Below, one piece after another: positions 20,063 through 54,597 of a stretch of DNA of 64,000 nt. This DNA comes from Procambarus clarkii. Taxonomy: Eukaryota; Arthropoda; Malacostraca; Decapoda; Cambaridae. Below the pieces are notes generated by a model. It saw only the letters and a list, made by a program, of their open reading frames with translations, was not told the DNA's origin and did not search any database. The translations under genes were made by a program, and so were the position numbers. Where the stretch lies: the NCBI RefSeq assembly GCF_040958095.1, contig NC_091219.1, forward strand, positions 28,062,850 to 28,126,849. The letters run 5' to 3'. Within the stretch, counting starts at the first letter, position 1. Every line of letters starts with the position of its first letter.

Positions 20063-20070
20063 TGACGTCA
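20063..20070 (+). promoter_or_regulatory. Palindromic CRE-like octamer overlapping the CULT start codon
   Basis: TGACGTCA is the consensus CREB/ATF site. Its last A is the first base of the proposed ATG. One 8-bp match can occur by chance; the position makes it worth noting, but no function is shown. Confidence 0.35.
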
Positions 20071-23000
20071 TGTACACAAAGGCGTGGGTACAGGCCGCCG
20101 TGTTGCTTCTTGTATCAGCGGGAAATACTACTGCATCTTCCCACCAAGATACAGGTGAGCTTTCTCACACCTGGGTAGGAGGGAAGTGTGGGCGGGGGCA
20201 GGTGTGTGGTGTAGGTGGGGCAGGTGTGAGGACGGGTGTGTGTGTGTACTGGTGGGAGGGGGGAGAGTTAGCGCGCCACAGAGCCATCACTGGGGTCACT
20301 GTATACCAAGCATCCTCCACATGGTTATATCGCTGTAAAAAAGGGCGTTTCTAGCGCTTAATTCACTGGTTAATGACCTGTTTAGATAACAGGTCATTAA
20401 CTCATACGTTTTGTGCTAGAGAAAGAGCATCGGCAAATCAACTGTCCGCACTACACTCCGCTTAACAAAACCTAAGGGCAACGTTACTCGAGTTTACCTA
20501 AACTGTCTTGACGTTACGTTTAACGTTTCAGATTTTGCACATTCTTATGACCTGAGGTACACTGTTAGGTTACAGGCCGTCTATGTGAGAATGCAGAAGC
20601 ACTCTGGCTAGGCTGTTTATGGTCACCTTCACATTTCTTGGCCTTGGAAGTCAAACCAGAGTAGTTATATATCGGCTAAATAATATTGGACTCGTGAGAT
20701 CAGTTTGCAAGAGGGATCTCGGAGGTAAGATTACTGGTGGTATCTAAAATTGAGTAAATAGTGTTTATGTGCTGAAAATAGAGCACATCAACTGGGAATG
20801 CTGGGCCAGCATTCATATAATTCTACATAAATTAAAAAAAAAATTGTGTGCCCCAAAGAAAGGGTTAATGTAGTTTTGTCATATATCATTTCCATAGCAA
20901 TTCATCTAGTAAAATGTATAACTGTTCTTTAGTTCACGTTACAGTGTAACCTCGATTTGAACTATGAGATCAACTTTGATTCGTTGGAGTGAGGGATTTG
21001 TTTCAACTGGAGATGCCTTCAGGAGGCATTTGTGAGACATCTTAAAAACAAAACCTGCAAGAAAAATAAATTTTACCCATTTCATTTTTGTAATGTTTGG
21101 TCCATCCACAAAAATAATAAAAAAATGTGATTAGAGCCATATTAAGAGAGCTATCATTTATACCCTAATATTTCCCATGCTCTGTGGGCTAATTTTATAG
21201 TGAAATTTTAATTTCAACTTATTACAAAATAGACAATTACCAGGAGAACTTGTCTGTAAAGAGAATTCACCAGATCTAGCATATGTCCCAAGCCCCATCC
21301 TCGAAATTTTATTTTCAAAGTAAGACTGTCCCAAATGTAAGTGAACAAAATCTGCAGTAACTTGAAATTTAAATAAACCATAGAATTTGGGTTGAAATAT
21401 GCTCAATGGCTTTCCCAAGGCCCCCAACTGTTTCTTCTAATGTTGCATCATCAATGAAAATCATTAAAAATGTGATTGTAGCCATATTCAGGAAATTGCT
21501 ATTCATGCCTTTATTTTTTATACTGGTGTAATTTCACTAAGCAAAATTTTTATATCAACCTGGGCAACTTTCCTACCAGTCTGGGCCCTGCATCCTAAGC
21601 AAATCTGCATATCATGCACTTTGCCAAACTCTTGTTAGTCAAAGCAGGTGAGTAAATCTGACCTGGAAAGACCAAGAAAGTGTATTTTACAATCAGAAAT
21701 TTGCCAAAATGAGGTTTGTTGAATTGAGGTTTCACCGTATTAACATTAGCTAAATACAACTGGCTTCAGACACCAAAAAACTTATATCCTGTCTTCTATT
21801 ATCATATTTTTTAAGGCAAATATTAAGGATTCAGTTCATTATAAATTATATTGAAAAGGTACATTGTGATTATAATACGATATTATTAGTTGGCATTTTC
21901 AACAGATCACATACTGTGCCGCAAATGTGGAACGGAGTTGACAGAAAACTCGCTGGACAACTTTGTTAATATCACTAGTCCATTATCGGAATCCACTCAT
22001 CAGTTGTCAGTCCTTGGCCACTCTCATTTGATGGTGCAGATGCTTAGAAACCCGGCTGATGTAACATTCAATTTGGTGACTGTGAAAAGATCTGGTTGTT
22101 CTGGCATTGGAGAGGTGAGTATGTTCCAGACAAAGTTCGGTTTACCCATGATTTGGAAATGTCACAACAGTATTAATTATACAGCCGTTAGATACAGATC
22201 TGATGAATAAAGTAGAAAAGGAGAACAGTGTGGAAAACATATTTAAGAGTTTATATTATTGATGACAAAGTAGACTGCCATGAACTAAAAATGCATAATT
22301 TTTTTTAAAATTAGGGATGACATTGATGATGATAAAGAGTGACCTCCTGGTCTTTCTGTTACTGTAATTTAAAACATCCCAACTAACATATTTCAAATAG
22401 TTATTAGGTATTCCCTTACCAAATATTTTTCAGTTTTTGGATGTACAGTACAAAGTTTTTGGTGTCTGTGGGATATCTGGAGAATGCCTTCATGTATTGT
22501 TTTGAAAATACAGTATTAAGCTGTTGAATGATGGAACAAGGAAAGTCTTCAATATTAATAGACCATATAGCCTTCTAGTGAGAGAAAGTTGCAAATTCTT
22601 CATGATTGTAGTAATATGAAGAATTCCACGCATCAGGTCATTTCTTGAAATCCAATTCCAATAATTACCTCTCAATTTTTACATATTGATTGTATAATTA
22701 GATGCAATGCACTCCATAGTCTAAACCTCCATTTAGTGGCTCCTACTTAACACTAGGTCAATCCCTTATTGGATCTCTTCAAAATTTGGGGTTTGGGAAA
22801 ACTCCATATTTTGGAGGGGGGTTGCTATGAAATCCAGAATGTTAAGTCATTTTCAGCAAACTGCTTTATTTTATTTTTGCTTGTGCTTTTGCTATTGTTC
22901 AGTGGAGAACAGAGTTCAAGTAAGAGGTGATCTAAATATTATTCTGAAAAACATTTACACCCAAGCTAATTATTTATTGAACAAGTTTGTAAGACATTTC

Positions 23001-26000
23001 TTAGAAAATTTTTAGTTAAAGAATGAGTTTTGGCTATGGGCAAGTCTAGGTTCTTAGTTCTTGTACACTATAAGTTGGTTATGACTGTACTCTTCAAAGA
23101 TAAGGTTTCTGGGTAGGAATGTCTAGAACATGGGAAATACTGGCAATGATGGTGAACTCTCTATAGCCAGATTCTCTTGGTAGATAGCTATCTTAAGAAA
23201 GATTTAGATTGTTTTACTTAGTAAAATTTACCCCATGGAGAATAGGAAAAATTAGGGTAACTTTTAATATTGCTTGTGTTGTATTTTTAGTGATTCATGT
23301 ACAGTAGGTGGGTACAACATTAGGAGAAACAACTCTTTCCATAGGAAATCTATTAAGAATATTGAAAATAAAATATTGTGGTGATCCACTCGAGAGGATG
23401 GTTTAATAAAACAGGATCAGTGACTACTATTATTACAGTTTATAGATCAGGTTACAGATTTGGGATGCGATATTGGGAAGGAATGTTACCCACTCATTTG
23501 GACGGTTTGGGGATTGAATGCCGACCTGCATTAAGCGAGGCTGTTGTTCTATCATCCAGCAAAAGTGGTTGGATTTGGGATGAGAGTGAGGACTAGCCAG
23601 TTGGCCTGGGGTGGCCTGCATAGTGGTGGATGGGGGAGCAGGTGGGATTGCTTGTTTAGTATAGTAATTTTCAGTTTGTTGTTGGCACTTAAACAAAACA
23701 TTTGATGACATAGGGAGTTTGGGCATCTTATGGCTTTTCATTGTGTTTTGGCCATTGTTCTTTGGTTAGTAGTTTGGTAAGTAGGTAGCCTGGTATTGAG
23801 TTAATCATGATCCGTGTGTTCCCATGCCTCATAAAGGATGCAAGGGAAAATTTGTAGGAATTTTGTCACTGGTGGGCAAAAATAGCTTGAGTTTGGTATG
23901 GTGACAGGTAAGAGCCAGTGGATTTAGCATGGGGAGCTACTGAAGCAGTACCCAGAATGAGGTGTTTCATTATGCTTAATGCACTACATTTGTTTATTGA
24001 CACACTTGTAAAGAGTGGGTTTTTTCTTACTAGAAATATAATATGAATGTGAGTACAGTATTTAATATTGGTTTTTTAGTTCCCATTTAAACCAAGAAAG
24101 GAACTATGCCAAAATCAGAGTGCTGGAATGAAAGGTTAAAACATGCAACGAGACCAGTCTGGTACCAAAAGTTCTTGTGGTACCGGTAAGTAACAAATGT
24201 ATTTTTAAACTAAAAGGATGAAAACAGTGTAGATGCTTTCAGTGCATTGGTGTCATATACATAACATTTCCAAAATTCACTGAACAATTCCCTCCAAAAA
24301 ATAATAGATTTCTGGAAGAGAATAAACAAAATTCTGAATATTTTGTCCCATTTTAAAAATCTGCAAATAAAATCCTTGCTCTTACTTTTAACATAATTGG
24401 AAGTTAATGTTATTTACAATAATATTTAGTTGGCATTAACCCTTATACGGCTCCAATTGTTATTTACAATTACCTTGTGTGCTCGAATCACCATATGCAA
24501 TTTTTTTGTACACTAGTTTTGTGAACTATTTTTTGTCATTCTCATCCTGATGTAGGACTTTTAATTGGCTGAGCTGTTTAAGGGTTAATGACAAGCAGGG
24601 CAGCATTAGGAAGATAGGTAACCACACTATGCTTTTGGTGAGGTCTTGTGTTCTGTTGCAGTGGTACAGTGATCATACCTGGTTTCCTGGCTACTTGTGG
24701 AAGGTGTGCATCTGCCCCCGCTGCCAGGCACACCTAGGCTGGTGAGGATGACCTTATCTGCCTATATGTGTTGGCCAGTCAGCTGTGTGCATGTGTTGGT
24801 TTGTGTTAAACAGTCAGCTGTGTTTGTGTGTAATTACCTAAGTGTAGTTACAGGATGAGAGCTACGCTCGTGGTGTCCCGTCTTCCCAGTACTCTGTCAT
24901 ATAACGCTTTGAAACTACTGACGGTTTTGACCTCCACTACCTTCTCACTAAACTTGTTGCAATCGTCTATCATTCTGCAAAAGAAAACTGTCTAATATTT
25001 TTTGGCATCTTTGTTTCCTTAGCTTGAATCTGTGTATTCTTGTTCTTGAAGTTGCTGGTTTCAGGAATTCCTCTGTCAATTTGGTAGATTCCTGTTATTG
25101 TTTTGTAAGTGGTGATCTTTTTCTTCTACCTTCTAGCTTTGGCTTCTAGCTTTGGCATATTTAATGCCTCTAGCCTCTCCTCTTAATTCTTGTTTTTCAG
25201 TTCTGGAAACCATTTTGTAGCATGCCTTTGTACCTTTTCCAGTTTATTGTTGTGCTTCTTGAGATATAGGCACCATACAACTGCTGCATATTGCAATTTT
25301 GATCTCACAAAAGTCATGAACAGTTTCTTTATTATTTCACCATCCATGAAATTAAAAGGGATTCTAAAGTTGGAAAGTGACGCACATGCTCCTCGCTTTT
25401 TCAGGAACTTGTTCCCCTCTTCCTTTTGTCCTCTACTCCCTCGACCTCTAATGATTTTTTTTTGTTATATACCATTTCACAGACCCCTAGCACCTTGTAG
25501 AAAAATTAATTTCTTTTTTCTTTATTTCTATTCCCATTTTGACATTTTGTCTTATTGAGGTTAGCTTTCTTTAGCTTACCTTCAGCTTTTCTGTCTTCCC
25601 TCGAGAGATCTCGTCTTAATGAAAAAAGTTTTCCATCCTCATCACTTTGCAATTTCCTGGCATTCCTAAGCACTTCTATCATTTGAATGGTCTATATGGT
25701 CTATCATTTGTCTATCTATATGGTATATAATGGTCTATATGGTCTATCATGGTCTATCATATATGGTCTATCATTTGTTTTACTCCATTAAATGTCACCC
25801 TTAATGGTCAAGATTTTTATCTTTTTTTTTTTTATTTCTGCCTATCCTAAAATCATTGATATTTTCCTTTGATGTGAGGCCTACTATTTTGTAGGCCTAA
25901 ACCTACTATTTTCTCAATGATTTTTATCTCTGCTGCTCTGTCCGCCCCAGATATTATGTTCTTTTCCATCCACCCAAAAATAATTATGGGCTTACTTCTA

Positions 26001-28492
26001 TCTACAGTGTTTTGTACTGATATACTGCTTGTGACAAACTCCTTCCTAATTGCTTGCCTAATATTGGATTCTTGCTGCTCATCCCTATTCTTAACTTCCA
26101 AACATATTTCTTTAATTGTTTCTTTTTCTTTTACAACTTGTGCATTTGTTTCTTTCATATCTTCTTTGAGCAATCCCTGAGTAACATCCTGGGCTTGATG
26201 TTTTCGTGAAGTGTCCCTAAGGCTGCCGTTGCTTAATTCTATATTGTTTCTAACCTGTAGGGATTCTCTCATGAGTTCCTCACCACATGTATCAATTTTT
26301 ATCATAGTGCCAGTGCTTCCTGTGCCTCTTTTTGAGGGGGGGGCCACATTCTGGCTCCTGGTCTCTGGTAGGCCTAAAGAATTCCACAACTGATGGCACG
26401 TAGTAGCTTCGCACACCAATAGTAGCTCCATAGAGCCACTGAGGCTTACCCAGAAATTGACATTTAATTACATTCAACACTGGGGGGGCATCATATAATA
26501 TATATTATAATAGCAGGGTCATATAATGACCCTGGATGGGCCTCCAGGATCAATACCATCTCATCAAGTGTCTTAGACTGTCATTGACCTACCAGAGACA
26601 AGAATCAGAATCAGAATCTGAGGCAAAGGAGCCGAGCATGTCTGAGACACCAGCAAGTCCAAGACACATGCTGGTGTCTGGAATAATAGGCTTTGGATTT
26701 TTTCCTTCAATGTGGTTTTATAATTTTCTAGAATTGAGTAATAAAAGAACATGAATTAAAGACAAAACCTTTCAAACAAGAAATGTAACAGGAATTTCTT
26801 TGTAATCTATGGAATTAAAACTCACACGGGCTTGCATACTTTGCAAGCTTTTGATTGGCCTTTGTCTTCTCCCAATCTGTATACCAAACCTTTGAAATAT
26901 ATTCATTAACTCAACATGTTGAGTAAGCCATCACTATTCTTGTTAAAGGACTACTTGGCAGGTACTGTACTGTGACAAATGTATTCATTTTCCCAAACAC
27001 TAACCCTGATGCCAAGTTTTTTGTTGGTATCCTTGCTTTGTGGCATTGCTAAGCTGAATCAGTAATGGCAAGCTGTTTTGGGAGATCTGCTTTGTGGCAT
27101 GCTAAGCTAAATCAGTAATGGCAAGCTATTTTGGCAATGTACCTCTGCTTGGCAATACTAAACTGACTCGGTAATAGTAAGCTATTTTTATGATTACTTT
27201 TGTTTTATGGCAATTTTCTAGTGAATCAGTCATGTGCCAAGATTAGTGCAGCTATTACTTCGCATATTTCTTTTACCAATTCTTTTTCCTTTTTCTTTTT
27301 TTTCTAGGATTTTTGAGCCAGTTGGAAAAGCCAGTATCAGCCATTTCAAAGCTTCATCAGAAGGCTTTTATGGGCTTATTCTTGAAAAACTGATTACTGA
27401 AGAATGTAAGTACTGTACTGTACTGTACTGCATAGTAATAAATAATAATCTTGTTGTGAAGAATGTTAGTAATAAGTTAGTAGCAAGTTGGTCGAGAATG
27501 CAAGTAGCATTAGTTAATGTGCTTTTAACAAGCCCGTCGCTTCCTCACTTCGTATATATACATACACCATATAAAGAATAGAAGTGGTAGGAGAAGAGAG
27601 ATCTGGTCAACCAGAGAGATCTGGTTGATCAGATCACGATCAGGAGGCCTGATGAGAGACCAGGCTGTGGGGGCACTAATACCCAGAACCACAAGGGAAG
27701 GTGCATACAACAGGTCCACCTTCCCACTGAGTTGGACCTGATCACATAGCAGAGCATGCTCCACTTTGGGTGCAGGAACACCATAATCCAAGCATAAATG
27801 AGGAAATGGAGACTAGAGAGATAATTTAAACATGGGAAATACTTGAAGGCTAAGTCTCTACTGTGCACAATAAAATAACTCCTTGTTGGAGTGAAATATG
27901 GTGGAAAATGCAGCATAAGCTCAGTCTGAGCAATGTTTCAACTTCAGAGACTCATGGTTATTCAACCTTCATCAGAAAATACAAGAAATATTTCTGGACG
28001 AAGGCTTTTCCCTTCAACAGGGAGCTAGACTGGTTTCTGCAGGAAGTTTGTGATCAGCCTGGTTGTGGTTCCTATTGGGCCTGTAGGCTGCTAACAGGAG
28101 TAGCTGTAGTGATCATCATCTGCAGGAAAACCTGCCCTTGGATCAAGCTACATGATTAGAATTTGTAAACCAGATTAGTATATCTTTTTGGTTTACCTGA
28201 CTCCCTGTCTTGTTTAGGAATAGATGATACTTTCTTCAGTTGGTTATGCTAGAAAAATATATATTTTTAGTGTAGTAGTTCAATGTACACATGATGGTCT
28301 ACATAAATCTGTTCTTATGTACATGGTGAAAGAGGGACCTTTTGCTGGGGCATAGAGGGAGTGGAAGGGAGGGGAGGTTGGGGCTTATTTACAATTATTC
28401 AGAACATTGTTTTTATCATAATCAAACTATTTTTATTTTTTCCAGTCTCGGATTCTCTTCTTGTTGGTTTACCTAAGCATCACAAATATTAA
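20070..28492 (+). CDS. Secreted CULT-domain protein (cereblon-like thalidomide-binding fold), complete, 172 aa
   Basis: Five exons: 20070-20154, 21906-22114, 24662-24741, 27308-27405 and 28446-28492, with GT/AG junctions and matching phases. Exon 1 encodes a signal peptide (MYTKAWVQAAVLLLVSAGN). Exon 2 gives the first zinc pair C33xxC36 (ILCRKCGTEL). Exon 3 gives HTWFPGYLW with cage residues W105 and W111, and the second pair C116xxC119. The exon 3/4 junction restores HLGWIF (W125, F127). Exon 4 ends GFYGLILEKLITEE. The CULT domain is known from cereblon, where three Trp bind glutarimides and C-terminal cyclic imide degrons, and from secreted animal proteins whose function is unknown. Every ligand-pocket and zinc residue I can place is kept. 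The last 15 residues (FSDSLLVGLPKHHKY) depend on the exon shared with the downstream RAMAC-like gene, so the C-terminus is less certain. Confidence 0.87.
20369..20401. repeat. Perfect 14-bp hairpin in CULT intron 1
   Basis: GTTAATGACCTGTT and its exact reverse complement are separated by TAGAT. The size resembles the hairpin at 8318-8353, but the sequence differs. Confidence 0.9.
20942..21737. mobile_element. Pogo/Tigger-like non-autonomous DNA transposon in CULT intron 1
   Basis: TA duplications flank CAGTGTAACCTCGATTT at the left and, on the opposite strand, CGGTGAAACCTCAATTC at the right. It is 796 bp long. Interior minus-strand sequence is open over about 90 codons (21427-21158) but has no recognisable transposase motif. 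It shares an interior block with 15735-15800. Confidence 0.7.
24436..24588. mobile_element. piggyBac-type MITE in CULT intron 2
   Basis: TTAACCCTTATACGGCTCC at the left and GAGCTGTTTAAGGGTTAA at the right, with TTAA duplications. It is 153 bp long and homologous to 7102-7251. Confidence 0.75.
24830..26431 (-). mobile_element. Degraded CR1-like LINE: ORF1-like segment followed by RT C-terminus, in CULT intron 3
   Basis: From right to left on the minus strand, an open segment (26431-25853, about 190 codons) is charged, with KEDMKETNAQVVKEKETIKE and similar stretches, and could be an ORF1-like or coiled-coil protein. Further left, RGACASLSNFRIPFNFMDGE, YAAVVWCLYLKKHNNKLEKV and FSEKVVEVKTVSSFKALYDR are the thumb and C-terminal part of a non-LTR RT, broken by stops. 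The middle (endonuclease and RT core) is missing. The ORF1 assignment is inference from position and composition. Confidence 0.65.
25670..25790. repeat. Short imperfect tandem of TATGGTCTATCAT
   Basis: Seven or so irregular copies of a 10-13-bp unit lie inside the degraded LINE. Confidence 0.8.
27950..28160 (+). mobile_element. LINE 3' coding-end fragment in CULT intron 4
   Basis: The plus strand reads FNRELDWFLQEVCDQPGCGS and continues YWACRLLTG. This resembles the FKxxLDxxLQxVxDEPxxxSY end common to arthropod RT proteins. At 27605-27710 is another short dispersed piece (GATCAGGAGGCCTGATGAGA then GACCAGGCTGTGGGGG), a tail type also seen degraded near 29775-29845. Confidence 0.55.
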
Positions 28493-28496
28493 GAAA

Positions 28497-31400
28497 ATGG
28501 CAGCTGAAGTTAGTGAGAATGGTTCTGCAAATGGTATGGTAGAACTGGATGAAAAATACCTCGCTCAGCTTGAAGAAGAGTTTGTAGATCGCTATACAGA
28601 AGATGATAAAGGCTTCATGGAGGTATGCAAATAATACTGGAATAAGAATACTCCCCCCCCCCCTTTCCCAAAAAAATGTTGGTTATGACTATTACAAACA
28701 TTCATTGTACATTTAAGACTGTTAAAGAGGGTGGTTGTATACCTGGAGAAGGTTTTGAGAGTTCTGTTCCCTGAGCTGGTCTCTGGCCAGGTTTAGGTTC
28801 CTCTTGTTCCTTACTCGGTCAGCTTCCAAGCCTTAGACTTGGCCGACTGTCTCTTCTTCATTCCGATTTCTGCAGTACTCTCCTCCTCCCTGGTAAGTGC
28901 CCATTTGTTCCTTCTCCATGGGTAGTAAGCATCAGGGAGCCATAAAGGGTTCCCTCCAAAAAGCCAGCATTCAGTGTAATGAAATGCCAATTTTTTGGTG
29001 AGTTCTGGTGACTCCCTGACATCTTCCCTCCCACAGAGAGTCGGGTAGCTTCATCATTCTTCAAATTAATGTTGGAGTGGCCTGTGAGCTGTGGCCTGGC
29101 CCCCCTCCTTTCCCCAAATGAGGGGGAGGGTAGCATGAACAAGGGAATGTTAGTTTTATGACATTTTTTATTATTTGTTTACATAGTTTGGGGCATTTTA
29201 TGATAGTTTTTGAGTATACAATCCTTGAAGATGACCAGTTGGGATTTATTGTGACTCGCTGACTTTCGGGGTGCCTTTCTAGGTGGTTGCATAAATTAAT
29301 AACTTAATATATAAGTGGCAAGGCTCCCTGCACTTTTCCTCTTCTTGATGGTATGTGCAGTTTGCATGAAGGGTTTATCCTCCCAATGACTGCAAGAGTA
29401 CAAATGTTGGGAGACGCATTAATGTTGAGAATTACAAGGTTTCAAGTGTTTGTATTGTGTTGTAGATAGAGGAGCGGTGACTAAACAGAGGTGTGTGTTA
29501 GAGGGAGACTTGCCGCATTGTCGGGCGGGAGGTTATGTTTATGGCGTCAGCTGATCGTTGGTGCTCGTGCGACGAGGCAGTTTTTTCTGTGTTTGGCTGC
29601 TGGTTGTGCTAGGTATAAATGTGACACAGTTCAAATGTGGCCCAATTTGTTGGTCGACTGGAGATATTTAGCCAGTGCTTTGACAATTTGATACTTTTCA
29701 TAAAACAAGAGATTATCTCCTAATATATGCTCGATGGTAAAAAATTATTTTAAGTGCGATAAGTACTATTGAGCCTGGCCTCGGGCCTGGCTCAGGGAGT
29801 AAATTAACACCTAGAACCCTCTACAGGTATGCTCCAGGTATACTATTTTGAAGTTTACTCTGGCACTATGATGTCAAACAGTGAAAGAGATAGTGTTTCA
29901 GGCACATGACAGTGTATGCAGAGTTTGTTGATGTCTGTTCTGTATTTAGAGCCGTGTGCTGCCAGTTTGATGTGTCCCAGCCTTAATCTGGTCATCGTTA
30001 CATCAATTTCTCTGTCTTATATCTGACATGTTTCCAAGTTTCCCATTTCTTTTTTATGGACCCATAGTACAAAGATGAGCATGACATTTTCCATTTCATT
30101 ACAAAATTTTGGGTGATGGTATCTTTGAAGGCTCCTTTACGTGCAACATGAGGAATTGGATGATGGATAATGTAAGGCGTATTATGCATCGCTTTGGCCA
30201 GTTGATCTACAAGTTTATTATGGAGTATACCATAATGCATTGGGACCCATTGGATAGAGATGCAATAGCCATTCAATTGATGTTCATGAAGTTGAAGGCA
30301 TGGGTAAACAAACTCTTTGCACGTTGTGGAAGAGTACATAATTGCTTGAATCACACTCTAGGAATCATTACACATTGTATATATCCCAACTGGTTTTGTT
30401 ATGATTACTTGGAGAGCTTGGTAAAAGACATACAATTTAGCTGTGAAAATAGATAGTTTGGTAACCGCCATACCTGCTTGAGATGGTATTGCGAAATCCA
30501 TACTGCACTAGTGACCTCACTGTAGTGCGTTGTTCATGGGCAATGCACTGGGTGCATTGTTCATGAGGATGCGAGATCCACCCTGCACTTCTGGTGAGGG
30601 GACCTGGTTCTTCGGGCTCTAGGTCCTTGGTAGACCAGAGTACAGTACTTCTTCACCGATGGCACCTACATCGGAGATGGTAACTTGAGGAAACCAGCCG
30701 GACTCATCCAGAAATTGGCATTTCATTACATTTAATGCTAGCTTTTTTAATGTCAGAATAATAGAACTGGATGGTTTGTGTGTTTTCAGGTTCTATAGAT
30801 CCTTAAATTTCATGTGTGACAAAATAAAGGGCACAGACCTTTTGTTGACTATTGGCAAAAGCTCCATATTCATGTAGAGAAAATGTAAGAATGCCTGATT
30901 GAAATATGAGTGAGTTTTTGATCATCAGATCATGTGTTAACACCAGTAGTTAACCTTATTTCCCTTATTGCATGATACATAGTATGTACGTATGATACTA
31001 TATGATACTATATGTGATACATACATATAGAGTAATGTACTGGCACAGTTCCAAGTATATACAAGTATCCTTGGAACAAAAATGTGTATCAAATGTAACT
31101 ATGTAATTTTCATTTCAATTACTGGACTTACATAGTGTATACTTGTTTCTTTGTATTGTCTAAACATTTTCTTGCGTCAGTTATGCCGCCTGTTGAATAT
31201 GAACCAAATGTTTTAAAATAATTATGTCTTGAGAAATATGTTAATTTTGTTATTTTATTTAAAGGGCAAGATCTAGTTTATTTATAAGAGAGATTAGTAT
31301 ATCTGTTAGTAATTTATATAATGTAAATTTTTAATTACATATGTGCATCAATATTCATTTACGAAATTTCTATTTCAGTACTACAGTAAACCAATGCCAG

Positions 31401-33910
31401 ATCCACCAATTCTGCCAGCAGAGAGGAGTGAACGCAGCAAGTATCGTGCAAGTTTACGAGGCAGAAACAGAGGCGGTGGCTACCAGGGTGACAGACGAGG
31501 AGGCTACCAGGGTGACAGACGTGGAGGCTATGGTTATGACAACAGATCAAACTATAGGGGTAATACCAGGGAGTATGGTGGGTATGGAGATAAGAGGGAC
31601 TATGGAGGTTTTAAGCGAGATTATGATGGTTCTAGGAAGGACACTAGCAATGATATGAGGGGTTATGAGGGTGATAGGAGGGGACTCTTGTCAACACCAG
31701 GTGGTGATAGAAGGGGACTTCTATCACCACCAGGTGGTGATAGAAGGGGACTTCTGTCGTCTCCAGAAGGTGTTGACAGACGTGGACTCTTGGCAGCACC
31801 AGTTGGTGGCGGCGATAAACGGGGACTTCTCTCACCACCAGATGGTGGTGGTGGTGATAGGAGAGGACTTTTAGCCCCACCAGATGGTGGTGGTGATAGA
31901 AGAGGGCTTCTCTCACCAATGGACAGTGGTAGAAGGGGACTTTTAGCACCACCAGATGGTGGTGATAGAAGAAGTCTTCTAACTCCACAGGATGGTGGCA
32001 GTGATAGAAGAGGACTTTTAGCACCTCCAGACAGTGACAGACGTGGACTCTTAGCACCACCAGATGGTGGTAATGATAGAAGAGGACTCTTAGCGCCACC
32101 AGATGGTGGCAATGATAGAAGAGGACTTTTGGCACCACCGGACGGTGGCAATGATAGAAGAGGACTTTTGGCACCACCAGATGGTGGCAATGATAGAAGA
32201 GGACTTTTGGCACCTCCAGATGGTGGCAATGATAGAAGAGGACTTTTGGCACCACCAGACGGTGGCAATGATAGAAGAGGACTTTTGGCACCACCAGATG
32301 GTGGCAATGATAGAAGAGGACTTTTAGCACCACCAGATGGTGGTAGTGATAGGAGAGGACTTTTGGCACCACCAGATGGTGGCAATGATAGAAGAGGACT
32401 TTTAGCACCACCAGATGGTGGTAGTGATAGGAGAGGACTTTTGGCACCACCAGATGGTGGTAGTAGAAAGGGACTTCTGCCAGCACCACAAGGTGGTGAC
32501 AGGAGTGGCTTCAGTGGAGACAATAGTGGTTTAGGTGGAGATAGAGGCAGTTTTGGTGGGGATAGAAGCGGTTTTGGTGGAGATAGAAGCAGTTTTGGTG
32601 GGGATAGAAGTGGTTTTGGTGGAGATAGAAGTGGTTTTGGTGGAGATAGAAGTGGTTTTGGTGGAGATAGAAGTGGTTTTGGTGGAGATAGAAGCAGCTT
32701 AGGTGGAGATAGAGGTGGTTTTGGTGGAGATAGAGGTGGTTTTGGTGGGAACAGAGGTGGATTAGGTGGAAATAGAGGTGGATTTGGAGGAGATGGAGGC
32801 AATTTTGTTGGAGACAGAGGTGGTTTTGGTAGAGATGGTGGTTTTGGCGGAGATAAAAGTGGTTTAGGTGGCGATAGAGGCAGTTTTGGTGGAGACAGAC
32901 GTGGTTTGGGTGGGGATGGTAGTTATGGTGGAGATAGAAACAGTTTTGGAGGAGAAAAAAGTGGGTATGGGGGAGACAGGAGTGGTTTAGGTGGTGACAG
33001 GAGTGGTTTAGGTAGTGACAGGAGTGGTTTAGGTGGTGACAGGAGTGGTTTAGGTAGTGACAGGAGTGGTTTAGGTGGTGACAGGAGTGGTTTAGGTGGA
33101 GACAGAAGTGGATTTGGGGGAGATAGGAGTGGATTTGGGGGAGACCGGAGTGGATTTGGTGGAGACAGGAGTGGATTTGCTGGAGACAGGAGTGGATTTG
33201 CTGGAGACAGGAGTGGTTTAGGTGGAGACAGAAGTGGATTTGGAGGAGACAGGAGTGGTTTAGGTGGAGACAGGAGTGGTTTAGGTGGAGACCGGAGTGG
33301 TTTAGGTGGAGACCGGAGTGGTTTAGGTGGAGACAGGAGTGGTTTAGGTGGAGACAGGAGTGGTTTAGGTGGAGACAGAAGTGGATTTGGAGGAGACAGG
33401 AGTGGTTTAGGAGGAGACAGGAGTGGTTTAGGTGGAGACAGAAGTGGTTTAGGTGGAGACAGAAGTGGATTTGGGGGAGACAGGAGTGGATTTGGTGGAG
33501 ACCGGAGTGGATTTGGAGACCGGAGTGGTTTTGGAGGAGACAAAGGGGGTTTTAGTGGAGATAAAGGTTTTGGTGGTGATAAAGTTGGTTTAGGTGGAGA
33601 TAGAAGCAATTTTGCCGGAGATAGAGGTGGTTTTGGTGGAGACAGGAGTGGTTTTGGTGGAGACAGGAGTGGTTTTGGTGGAGATAGAAGTGGTTTTGGA
33701 GATAGAAGTGGTTTTGATGGTGATAGAAGTAGTTTTGGTGGAGACAAAAGTGGTTTTGGTGGTGACAGAAGCAGTTTTGGTAGTGGTGACAGAAGCAGTC
33801 TAGGTGGTGATAGGAGTGGTTACATGGGTGATAGCAATAGGGGTTCAACCCATAATCAGTCAAGTACCTCCTATTATGGGAATAGTAGTGGAAGGGACAG
33901 TGTGTTTTAG
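28497..33910 (+). CDS. RAMAC/RAM-like cap-methyltransferase activator with giant repeat tail, 885 aa
   Basis: Two exons: 28497-28622 (42 codons) and 31379-33910 (843 codons and stop), phase 0. Residues 29-47, [19 protein letters not shown], closely match the conserved core of RNMT-activating mini-protein (FxxRFTEDDKEYxEYLKRP), followed by PDPPILPAE. In vertebrates this part binds and activates the mRNA cap guanine-N7 methyltransferase in the nucleus, and an R/G/N-rich tail binds RNA. Here residues of about 63-140 are RGG/RGY-rich ([10 protein letters not shown]). Then come about 22 units of [13 protein letters not shown] (about 141-412) and more than 50 units of [14 protein letters not shown] type (about 413-856), ending [10 protein letters not shown]. 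Vertebrate RAM is about 118 aa. The frame stays open over 2.5 kb in spite of repeat-unit turnover, which argues for a protein under selection. The start codon lies 4 nt after the CULT stop. The ATG context (AAGAAAATGG) is good. Confidence 0.85.
28925..29025 (-). repeat. Dispersed repeat, one of three nearby copies
   Basis: The minus strand contains AAATTGGCATTTCATTACAC followed by TGAATGCTGGC. Related plus-strand copies lie at about 26440-26480 (GAAATTGACATTTAATTACA) and 30700-30745 (GAAATTGGCATTTCATTACA). The class is unknown. Confidence 0.55.
29330..30400 (-). mobile_element. LINE copy: RNase H end plus 3' UTR, in RAMAC intron 1
   Basis: The minus-strand frame 30354-29998 reads [22 protein letters not shown], corresponding to the RNase H motif (WVPSHCGIPGNExADxLAK), then [19 protein letters not shown]. 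The non-coding tail to 29330 matches 36790-37250 closely. It is 5' truncated. Confidence 0.75.
31673..32490 (+). repeat. In-frame 39-bp coding array ([13 protein letters not shown])
   Basis: About 22 units encode DRRGLLxPPDGGx. The central units (about 32060-32470) are nearly identical at the DNA level, while the earlier ones differ in length and sequence, the usual pattern of unequal exchange in the middle of an array. All length changes are multiples of three. Confidence 0.95.
32491..33820 (+). repeat. In-frame 21-bp coding array (GGDRSGF/L)
   Basis: More than 50 heptads of the form GGDRSGF or GGDRSGL, with SS, GG, N and K variants. Purine-rich on the plus strand throughout. Blocks of identical subvariants (for example alternating GGTTTAGGTGG and GGTTTAGGTAG near 32985-33080) point to local amplification. 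Confidence 0.95.
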
Positions 33911-36789
33911 TTAACACTTACTAGGTAGTAATAGTGATTGTGCCTCATGCATTAAGGAAGGCTTTGAAGCCGACCAGGCAGGTAATTTTTTAACCTATGG
34001 AAGTTTCTGCCAACATGACTACCACACCCATACTTAGCAAGTTGTAGGGTCCAAGATCAGTTATTGATCTGGTAAGATCACACAAATACAACTAACCCTG
34101 GAAATTCATTCGCACTGGAATACAATCTTATCAATTAGTTTACATCTAGTACTCCAGTTACTGAATCAAGGTATGAAGAAACTGTCAAAAGGGTTCTGCC
34201 TTGCCCAGTAATCAAACCTGGGGTTTCAGTTGCAAAGCAGGGAACAGATTCACGAAGCAGTTACGCAAGTACTTACGAACGTGTATATCTTTCCTCAATC
34301 TGTGATGGCTTTGGTTACATTTATTAAACAGTTTACAAGCATGAAAACTTCCCAATCAACTGCTGTTATTGTTATAAACAGCCTCCTGGTGCTTCAGAGC
34401 TCATTAACTGTTGAATAATTGTAAACAAAGCCACGAAAGATTGAGAAAAGATGCACAGGCTTGTAAGTGCTTGCGTAACTGCTTCGTGAATCTGGCTCCA
34501 GGTGCGCTGTCTAACACACCTCGGGATTACCAACTACCTGATAAAGAACTATTGGTTAATTATATGTTGTCCGTAACATACATGCTCTTGCATTCGGAGC
34601 AAGGTTACTTGTAAAGAATCTTCCTCAAAAGATTCATGTCTTGTCTCTTGAAGTCTTTTGAGTGTTAACAACTTGGCATTAATGTTTATAATGTTTCCTG
34701 AAGAACTCTGCAAGTTTGGTGACTCAAAGAAAGTCTTACTGTGCCGTATGAAATATAAACAAAAATACAAAAATAAGGGTTGCTTCAGCAGTGATGCATG
34801 GAAAATTTGAAAATTCTCAGTTGACAAAAGGAAGAATATGGTATTTACGAATTGAAACTTCAGAAAATAATGTGTATTTTTGAATGTTTTGTTAGAATAA
34901 GTGGTGCTGCAGTATGAAAGTGAACAGAAAAAGTACCATTATGAGTGAATAAGAGTTTATTTTGCTTTTATGTTTGTGCTTGTGGCCCTCTTGAGTGACC
35001 AAGGCCACATGACTGTACTCCATGGGTACTGGTGTAACACAGCAGAAAATCTCATACTAGATAATGCTAGCTACTCAAACAGGGTTTTTATCATTTTTAT
35101 GCATGAAAAACATGATGATGCTGTATATACCAGAAGATATTAGGACACTGTATATACCAAGACATTAGGATGCTCTAGGTTCAGACAAACGTTTAAGTAC
35201 AATACTACCAGTATGTTTGGTCTAAGTGGCCCAAGATGTTGCAATAGCAGAAGGGTGGTTTGTAACACTTCATTATAGATAAATAACCCAATGCACACAC
35301 ACACACACACATGGAAAGAAAGGAATGCGATGATGTTGCAGTCCGTGCTAAGCCATGGAGCCTGTTTTGACTTGAAGGAGGTCCAAGACGGGCCAAAGTG
35401 TCATCATATTCCTCTCCCGTGCGTGTGGGTTGGGTTACTTTCAGGCATGTTATTGTGACATTCTCTGCATTTTGCATAATTTTTACATATTTATTTTTAT
35501 TTTGTAATACTATAATTGTGCTGTGGGGAAGATGATAATATGCTGTACTTTGGTATTAAAATAATGTGAGCCTTAAAATTAAATAAAATTGTGCTGCTGC
35601 TGTTGCTGTTGCAAGTTCTGTATTGTATATTGCATGAAGGAAATATGTTTATTGATGAAGTAGTTTGGAAAGGAAGGAGGACTTTCAGGTTATCATGTTT
35701 TTTATGAAAATCATTCATTGTCAATCTGTTTTGAGGGAAAATAATAATTTCTTTACTAATGTCTTGGGAAAATTTTGACTTAACTATATTTTCTTAAATA
35801 ATTTTTCAGTGCTACTTAAGTAACTTAAGCTACTTGTTTAAATATATTCTTCAATATGGATAATCTCTGAAATTTATAAATAGTTATTAGACATGTATCC
35901 AGTTTGTCCTTGAGTTTATGAAATTATAATGTATGTGTAAAGTGTACATCATGTACCGTTATTCAGAGCAAGGTTTAAGGTGATCATACATTGGCTAATG
36001 ACTTTTATTACTCTAAGATTCCTTTTTGATTAACAAACAGCTGTTTGGAACCCTATAGTTAGCTCATTGATTTTCTATCCAGGCCAGGATTGTTTATTAC
36101 AGAAAGAACCTTACTTGGAGAATAAAAAGCCTCATGTCTGCTATGCCACAGTTGACCTTGTATCAAGAAGATAGCCAGACTATATTCTGGGTTGATTTTT
36201 TATTTGATTATGTTGCACACACCCCCAATTTCTTAATGGGACTTTAAATCAAGAGACATTGTTACCATTAAGAGAAATAAAGTATTGTATGTATAGATTA
36301 GTACCTCTACTACCATGTCCTATATTTACTGTAACAAAGATGTATGTGACGTTCAATATATATTTAATTAGATTTTTTTTTTTCGTGGGCTCTGATGGTG
36401 TTCACTGACAGATGCTCTATTTTCTCCCTCTGTGCTCCTTGCAGTACCTGCTACATATCTTTAATGATATTTGGGTGTCTTCTGTCCCCAATGACTGTGT
36501 TTTTTCCTATTATTGAAGCCTGGTACTTGAGGGGCCTCCCTTAATGATTTTTATCCCATTGCCTTAACAAATTGCATTTGCAAACTTGAATGTATGATAC
36601 AGTAAATGTATGTCTCGTGTGGTTCCTAGAACGTCTAAATTGGTTTCACATAGGTCACAGCATAATGGATATTTTGTTGAGACCTCCAAGTTAACTTGAC
36701 AAGACTACATCTGTATTGCCTTTGCTGTGAATTCCTAGTCATTTTGGCCTGGAAAAACCTTATGATACCACCTGGAGGTAAAATATTCT
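33911..36789. other. Probable RAMAC-like 3' UTR and downstream sequence
   Basis: No further exon is seen. A candidate polyadenylation signal AATAAA lies at 36276-36281; earlier AATAAA-like strings exist, so the UTR length is unknown. A (CA)n tract lies at 35294-35311. A MITE is listed separately. Confidence 0.45.
34240..34499. mobile_element. MITE with about 45-bp terminal inverted repeats
   Basis: The left end, GGAACAGATTCACGAAGCAG then TTACGCAAG, is mirrored at the right end by CTTGCGTAACTGCTTCGTGA then ATCTGGCTCC. The interior of about 170 bp is non-coding. The superfamily is not clear from the ends, and no clean target duplication was found. It lies in the probable 3' UTR of the RAMAC-like gene. 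Confidence 0.8.
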
Positions 36790-37570
36790 TGCCCAGCTGC
36801 ATTCCTTTGGCCTTCTTCTTGATAGTAGGTGCAGTTTGCATGAAGGGTTTGTCCTCATGATAACTGCACCAGTACAGATGTTGGGAGATGCGTTTATGTT
36901 GAGGATGACAAGAGTTTCAAAAGTGTTTGTTGCGTTGTGCTGTAGGTAGAGGAGCGGTGGTTAAAACAGAGGTGTACGTTAGGAGGAGACTTGCCGCATT
37001 GTAGGGCGGTATGTTGTTTATGGCATCAGCTGATCCATAGTGTTGTGACGAGGCACTTGTTTTCTGTGTAGCTGTTGGTGGCGCCAGGTATAAATGTGGC
37101 AAGGGTCAGATGTGACACAATTTGGAGATATTTAGCCAATGCTTTGACTTTGGTATTTTTCCTGTAATGAGTGGTCACCTCCTAGTGTATATTCAATGGT
37201 AAAAGGTATTTTAAGTGCGATAAATACTTGTTTGAATTTACTCTGGCACTATGATGTCGGAAGCAGTGAAGGAGATAGTGTTTAGGTTGTTTCAGGCACC
37301 TGACAGTGGATGCAGAGTTCGTTGATGTCTGTTCTGTCGTTAGAAATGTATGCTGCCAGTTTGGTGTGTCCGAACGTTAATCTGGTCATTGTTATATAAA
37401 TTTCTCTGCTTTTATTTCTGTCATGTTTCCAAGTTTCCCATTTCTTCTTAATGGACCCATAGTACAAAGGTGAGCATGACGTTTTCCATTTCGTTGCAAA
37501 ATCTTGAGTGATGGTATTTTTGAAGGCTCCTTTATGTGCAACATGAGAAATTGGATGATGGGTAATGCGA
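36790..37570 (-). mobile_element. Second copy of the RNase H-type LINE end
   Basis: It is homologous to 29330-30400 in the same orientation: shared tail (CAGTTTGCATGAAGGGTTT, TAGAGGAGCGGTG, GACTTGCCGCATTGT) and shared coding end [17 protein letters not shown]. It is cut at about 37570, where a different LINE scrap (37680-37760, GVPQGSVL) begins. Confidence 0.75.

Positions 37571-41036: not shown

Positions 41037-54597
<13,561 letters not shown>

Follow-up and report, generated by a model that had tools for sequence, protein, structure and literature searches.

The stretch of DNA analysed here (hereafter the window) comprises 64,000 nucleotides (nt) of the Procambarus clarkii genome (assembly GCF_040958095.1, contig NC_091219.1, forward-strand positions 28,062,850 to 28,126,849) and is numbered from its first nucleotide. 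Its plus strand carries two genes in tandem, one for a predicted secreted protein of the CULT family and one for a RAMAC-like protein, and the two meet in an exon at 28446..28622. According to the spliced reading frames and to relatives of the encoded proteins, this exon is both the last coding exon of the CULT gene and the first coding exon of the RAMAC-like gene. We think it rather probable that the two genes form a single transcription unit with its promoter near 20 kb, at the start of CULT, that exon 28446-28622 belongs to both, and that the message is dicistronic whenever this exon is included.

The shared exon

The splice sites bounding the shared exon are present in the sequence (acceptor TTTTTTCCAG/TC at 28445/28446; donor GAG/GTATGC at 28622). 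When scored with a generic matrix, the acceptor at 28446 lies above 99.8% of the AG sites in the window and the donors at 27405 and 28622 lie at the 97th percentile; the acceptor at 31379, used for RAMAC exon 2, scores lower (93rd percentile). Phases fit at both edges, from 27405 to 28446 and from 28622 to 31379. On the plus strand the exon holds, in order, the C-terminal tail of CULT (FSDSLLVGLPKHHKY) with its stop codon (28446..28492, the TAA occupying 28490-28492), a 4-nt spacer, GAAA (28493..28496), and codons 1-42 of the RAMAC-like frame (28497..28622), whose ATG at 28497 is in another frame and lies in the context AAGAAAATGG. The acceptor is required by CULT and the donor by RAMAC: both frames are read from the sequence, and the joint use of the two sites in one message is predicted.

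One of the features of a dicistronic pair is seen here: on the same strand, two complete frames follow one another, and each is conserved in its own right. The shared exon is more than a product of chance, because the CULT tail is conserved, the RAMAC-like codons match the RAM family and the splice sites score as given above. A preliminary description of this locus had placed the acceptor at 28444-28445 in phase with CULT exon 4 (ending at 27405), and the spliced open reading frame (ORF) does run for 519 nt through to the stop at 28490-28492. Its count of 15 further complete codons needs adjustment: 15 residues are added, by one split codon and 14 whole codons. The RAMAC-like ATG at 28497, the 4-nt gap and the donor at 28622 leading in phase into the RAMAC-like body are all present as it had proposed, and its naming of the two genes is borne out by a cereblon match (E 1.7e-9) and by the Pfam RAM model (39.8 bits).

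The CULT gene and its conserved tail

CULT is encoded by five exons. Exon 1 (20070..20154) holds the start codon and a predicted signal peptide (MYTKAWVQAAVLLLVSAGNTTA..., judged by eye rather than with a predictor); exon 2 (21906..22114), which was aligned with relatives, carries the first CxxC zinc pair, CRKC; exon 3 (24662..24741) contains the WFPGYxW motif and the second pair, CPRC; and exon 4 (27308..27405) finishes the CULT core (...FYGLILEKLITEE). Together with 28446-28492 these give a protein of 172 residues ending in LITEEFSDSLLVGLPKHHKY. CRKC, CPRC, WFPGYLW and LGW are all present and cereblon structures are matched; the Pfam Yippee-Mis18 model reaches only 17.2 bits, under its cut-off of 26.6. 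PMC4287342 describes the CULT family, which includes secreted animal proteins, by conserved zinc and aromatic-cage residues, and the conserved cysteine pairs and three tryptophans are common to those proteins and to the protein encoded here.

Our search with the CULT protein returned 16 proteins, the best relatives being those of Homarus (77% identity across the full length) and Cherax (83% across 91%). The pattern at the end of exon 4 is present in nine of them (P0001-P0009), all of which reach the region of the tail. A tail of the same length and pattern (FS[DE]SL...) follows in seven (P0001 and P0003-P0008), five of which come from a penaeid shrimp, a crab, a lobster and two caridean prawns; of the remaining two, P0002 from Cherax quadricarinatus has a different tail and P0009 ends after KFS. 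On these alignments the CULT tail is conserved. It is modelled with low confidence: in a structure model of the Homarus protein built with ten sequences (mean predicted local distance difference test [pLDDT] score 72.9), the last strand comprises residues 153-155, ahead of the tail, and confidence falls beyond the end of exon 4 to about 35 in the tail. Two distant CULT proteins that are probably bacterial, P0015 and P0016, also stop near the end of exon 4. In Scylla paramamosain, a copy of CULT exon 2 forms the end of three protein models (P0012, P0013 and P0014, two of which bear the name GTP-binding protein 10), and the exon looks as if it had been duplicated and captured.

The RAMAC-like gene

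The RAMAC-like frame leaves the shared exon in phase 0 after 42 codons and is joined to 31379. The coding part of exon 2 (31379..33910, plus strand) supplies the rest of the RAM domain, an RG-rich stretch, two repeat arrays and a stop codon ending at 33910, for a total of 885 residues; a cluster of ATTAAA/AATAAA hexamers with GT-rich sequence downstream (35555..35590) is the likely poly(A) signal. The N-terminal part of the protein matches Pfam RAM (PF15320) at 39.8 bits (E 6.9e-10), above the gathering cut-off of 25, and the solved human RAM peptide is matched at E 1.8e-4. The RAM activation domain is common to this protein and to vertebrate RAM/RAMAC (PMC3235549), and by family membership the crayfish protein may bind and activate RNMT. 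Human RAM/RAMAC has 118 residues; the far greater length here is due to the two in-frame arrays (31671-33821), composed of units of about 13 residues followed by 7-residue DRSGFGG units. The same paper, from 2011, gives RAM as found in vertebrates only, whereas 28497-31450 encodes a clear RAM-domain protein in a crustacean.

A single relative of the RAMAC-like protein was found. An initial protein search gave no match among 7995 scored candidates, the query words having probably been filled by the repeats, and a search with RAMAC residues 14-73 gave one match among 5 candidates: P0017, a protein of 202 residues from a contig 1438 nt long. Its first Met corresponds to that of the RAMAC-like frame, its alignment (62% over residues 14-73) spans the exon junction, and its Pfam RAM score of 23.7 bits is just under the cut-off. 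A scan of genome contigs for relatives with genomic context returned one bacterial locus only (L001; 32% identity over residues 4-63), which was not used.

An alternative CULT tail in Cherax

In the Cherax protein P0002, the usual tail is replaced by one that ends EE-SPQKTTTKPTNYASRER. When this tail was searched along 20-46 kb, the top match fell at the start of RAMAC exon 2 (31378; score 33, runner-up 31), and the best scores of 12 shuffled queries ranged from 24 to 35, with one above the real 33. Exon 4 ends one nucleotide into a codon, so only one frame is possible if it is joined directly to 31379. At the site fixed in this way (31381), the tail scores 36 with a stop bonus and 31 without; both scores rank first of 127,898 positions on the two strands of the window, and the stop codon coincides. 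In addition, when the possible codons of the Cherax tail are read in the RAMAC frame, 10 of 17 residues of the window's RAMAC peptide are allowed, a number that only 4 of 2000 shuffled tails reach.

In the Cherax model, RAMAC exon 2 thus seems to follow CULT exon 4 directly, with the shared exon left out. This evidence is strong without being conclusive, since the site was first located by search and then tested, and since it comes from a single model in a single species. With such a join, transcripts of CULT would extend into RAMAC exon 2 in another decapod. The equivalent skip in this window would end CULT in ...LITEELLQ followed by a stop.

Variable splicing in the region, as suggested by the Cherax model, is also what one alternative calls for: one promoter with two alternatively spliced messages, the RAMAC form skipping CULT exons 2-4 and leaving an upstream frame of 43 residues. 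The join from 20154 to 28446 is phase-compatible (a 1 in 3 chance), and short upstream frames allow reinitiation better than long ones (PMC5972666), but nothing observed shows this join, and 43 codons exceeds the usual mammalian limit of about 30 given in the same source. We regard this alternative as improbable.

Probable transcription across the CULT-RAMAC boundary

It is very probable that CULT messages contain the start codon of RAMAC, because the conserved tail shows the message reaching 28492, the ATG lies 4 nt further on, and there is no AATAAA or ATTAAA between the CULT stop and 30823. Weaker hexamers are GATAAA at 28605, within the RAMAC codons, and CATAAA, AATATA, TATAAA and AGTAAA from 28941 to 29798. 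CULT messages that use the shared exon would either be spliced on at 28622, and so be dicistronic, or end within RAMAC intron 1.

CULT messages could be terminated within RAMAC intron 1 at the variant hexamers found from 28941 onwards, which would suit two genes that overlap head to tail. RAMAC would then have a promoter within CULT intron 4 or where the shared exon begins, and in CULT messages the RAMAC start would be 3' untranslated region. An own promoter would be profitable, as RAM is needed for mammalian cell viability (PMC3235549). The start context AAGAAAATGG is strong, and TATAAAG at 27570 and TCAGTT at 28236 are candidate promoter elements. PMC4528330 adds that 3' monocistronic forms in the fly usually start at a downstream promoter, and that at 69 of 159 dicistronic loci one gene is also monocistronic. 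Against these points stand the apparent Cherax junction between CULT exon 4 and RAMAC exon 2, the lack of a paired initiator (Inr) and downstream promoter element (DPE) in 27001-28700 under the pattern used, and CpG observed/expected (o/e) ratios at the RAMAC start that are among the lowest in the window. No donor scoring above 5 marks a RAMAC-specific noncoding exon in intron 4, a weak test, since a threshold of 5 would also miss two of the five donors in use (scores of about 4). We consider a separate RAMAC promoter unlikely, if far from negligible.

Computed in 1-kb windows, CpG o/e reaches 0.72 at the CULT start, and a NUBP1-like gene (minus strand, ATG 54597) has 0.68 at its start; just upstream of the RAMAC ATG it is 0.148 and around the RAMAC exon 0.144, values that rank in the lowest 7-8% of the window. 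This trough lies inside a stretch of o/e 0.11 to 0.36 that extends from 20.5 to 29.5 kb. In the marbled crayfish, methylation is found chiefly within housekeeping gene bodies (PMC6172769). Gene-body methylation would be expected to deplete CpG and to spare promoters, and an unmethylated promoter should be less depleted; the missing CpG recovery at the RAMAC start would then point to one transcription unit.

A rise in CpG at 29-30.7 kb was considered as a RAMAC promoter and rejected, as it is downstream of RAMAC exon 1 and inside a repeat. The repeat itself (28958-30747, in RAMAC intron 1) has 60-bp inverted ends of 80% identity and a weak RNase H-like frame (18.1 bits, under the Pfam cut-off), and part of it recurs at 36814-37567 with 78-86% identity. 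The NUBP1-like gene (43363-54597, minus strand) is convergent with CULT/RAMAC; its name rests on motifs that we take to be those of NUBP1, not on a database match.

A further means of producing a RAMAC message would be spliced-leader trans-splicing at 28445 from an operon-like precursor. Spliced leaders are known in the amphipod Parhyale (PMC5111886), but an open-licence literature search for spliced leaders, trans-splicing and decapods gave only the amphipod genome, and a leader RNA was not searched for. We hold this to be highly improbable.

The preliminary description had offered a dicistronic mRNA, an intron-4 promoter and alternative splicing as options. The Cherax tail and the absent CpG recovery favour a single transcription unit among them; the exon-skipping form that Cherax suggests was not spelled out there.

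Possible translation of the second frame

Under the favoured arrangement of one dicistronic, exon-sharing unit, a promoter near 20 kb would drive both frames. With the shared exon included, the message would read CULT frame, UAA, GAAA, RAMAC frame; with the exon skipped, as in the Cherax model, a CULT-only message would result, its frame ending inside RAMAC exon 2. RAMAC would be translated by reinitiation at the AUG beside the stop, or from a shorter splice form with a reduced CULT frame. Three points here are inferred: the presence in P. clarkii of a spliced mRNA spanning both frames, the lack of a separate RAMAC promoter, and the translation of RAMAC from such an mRNA.

Three features are in favour of reinitiation: the 4-nt gap, the strong context of the RAMAC start (AAGAAAATGG, compared with GACGTCATGT for CULT) and the position of the next exon junction, the only one found past the CULT stop, within the RAMAC frame. 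Translation of both frames would therefore cover and clear the junctions found; a layout of this kind, immune to nonsense-mediated decay, has been described for human LASS1-GDF1 (PMC3951408). Leaky scanning through CULT was also considered and is not supported, as the depletion of internal AUGs is not significant.

Several observations weigh against a single unit translated in this way. PMC5972666 describes reinitiation as presumably very rare once a long ORF has been translated. For RAMAC it would follow 172 codons, which would be unusual and makes this a demanding claim. The UGGGA motif typical of termination upstream ribosome-binding sites (TURBS) is absent from the 93 nt ending with the CULT stop, the RNA fold at the stop/start is less stable than most shuffles (z +1.49), and internal AUGs in the CULT frame show no clear depletion (5, compared with 6.95 expected from synonymous shuffles, 17% of which are as low). 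The CULT stop lies 130 nt ahead of the junction at 28622, and under the exon junction complex (EJC) rule a message with such a stop would be a target for decay if RAMAC were untranslated. The contig that carries P0017 is 1438 nt long, a length listed for none of the 16 CULT matches, which weakly hints that RAMAC messages are separate. The CpG comparison involves two gene starts only, together with methylation data from another species, and CpG-rich stretches without a known gene start occur at 14-17 kb, 46-50 kb (inside the NUBP1-like gene) and 56.5-63 kb. Finally, the Cherax evidence is a single protein model, known at the protein level.

The shared exon might in addition act as a cassette switch, although we regard this as doubtful. 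Inclusion would yield tailed CULT plus RAMAC, and skipping only CULT with the other tail; the splicing choice would set the amount of RAMAC and hence the level of cap methylation, and RAMAC translation would shield the message from decay.

Relation to known systems and significance

FlyBase lists 159 dicistronic pairs in D. melanogaster (SO:0000722), 45 of which appear to make both proteins exclusively from dicistronic messages, and 162 fly gene models share exons but no coding sequence (PMC4528330). The arrangement is therefore of a kind already known in arthropods and not uncommon in flies. As in the fly pairs, two unrelated complete frames lie in tandem, and the 4-nt gap is within the range of -34 to 319 nt given for fly loci with polycistronic messages only; the pair here differs in being known from genomic DNA and in that Cherax appears to skip the shared exon. 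Like the fly exon-sharing genes, CULT and RAMAC have an exon but no codons in common, with the difference that here one frame finishes and the other begins within that exon. Human LASS1-GDF1 likewise has tandem frames with exon junctions covered by both (PMC3951408), but it involves other proteins in another lineage and is a documented bicistronic locus, whereas the pair described here is predicted. In agreement with the preliminary description, which knew of no case of this pair, open-licence literature searches gave no match for CULT with RAMAC, for the position of the shared exon or for the Cherax skipping.

If the favoured arrangement is true, read counts and gene models that treat the pair as one gene, or as independent genes, would be wrong. 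The locus would also offer a natural test of an animal ribosome starting a second long frame 4 nt past a stop. In decapods, a nuclear cap-methylation factor that is essential in mammalian cells would rely on a secreted protein's gene for its promoter and splicing.
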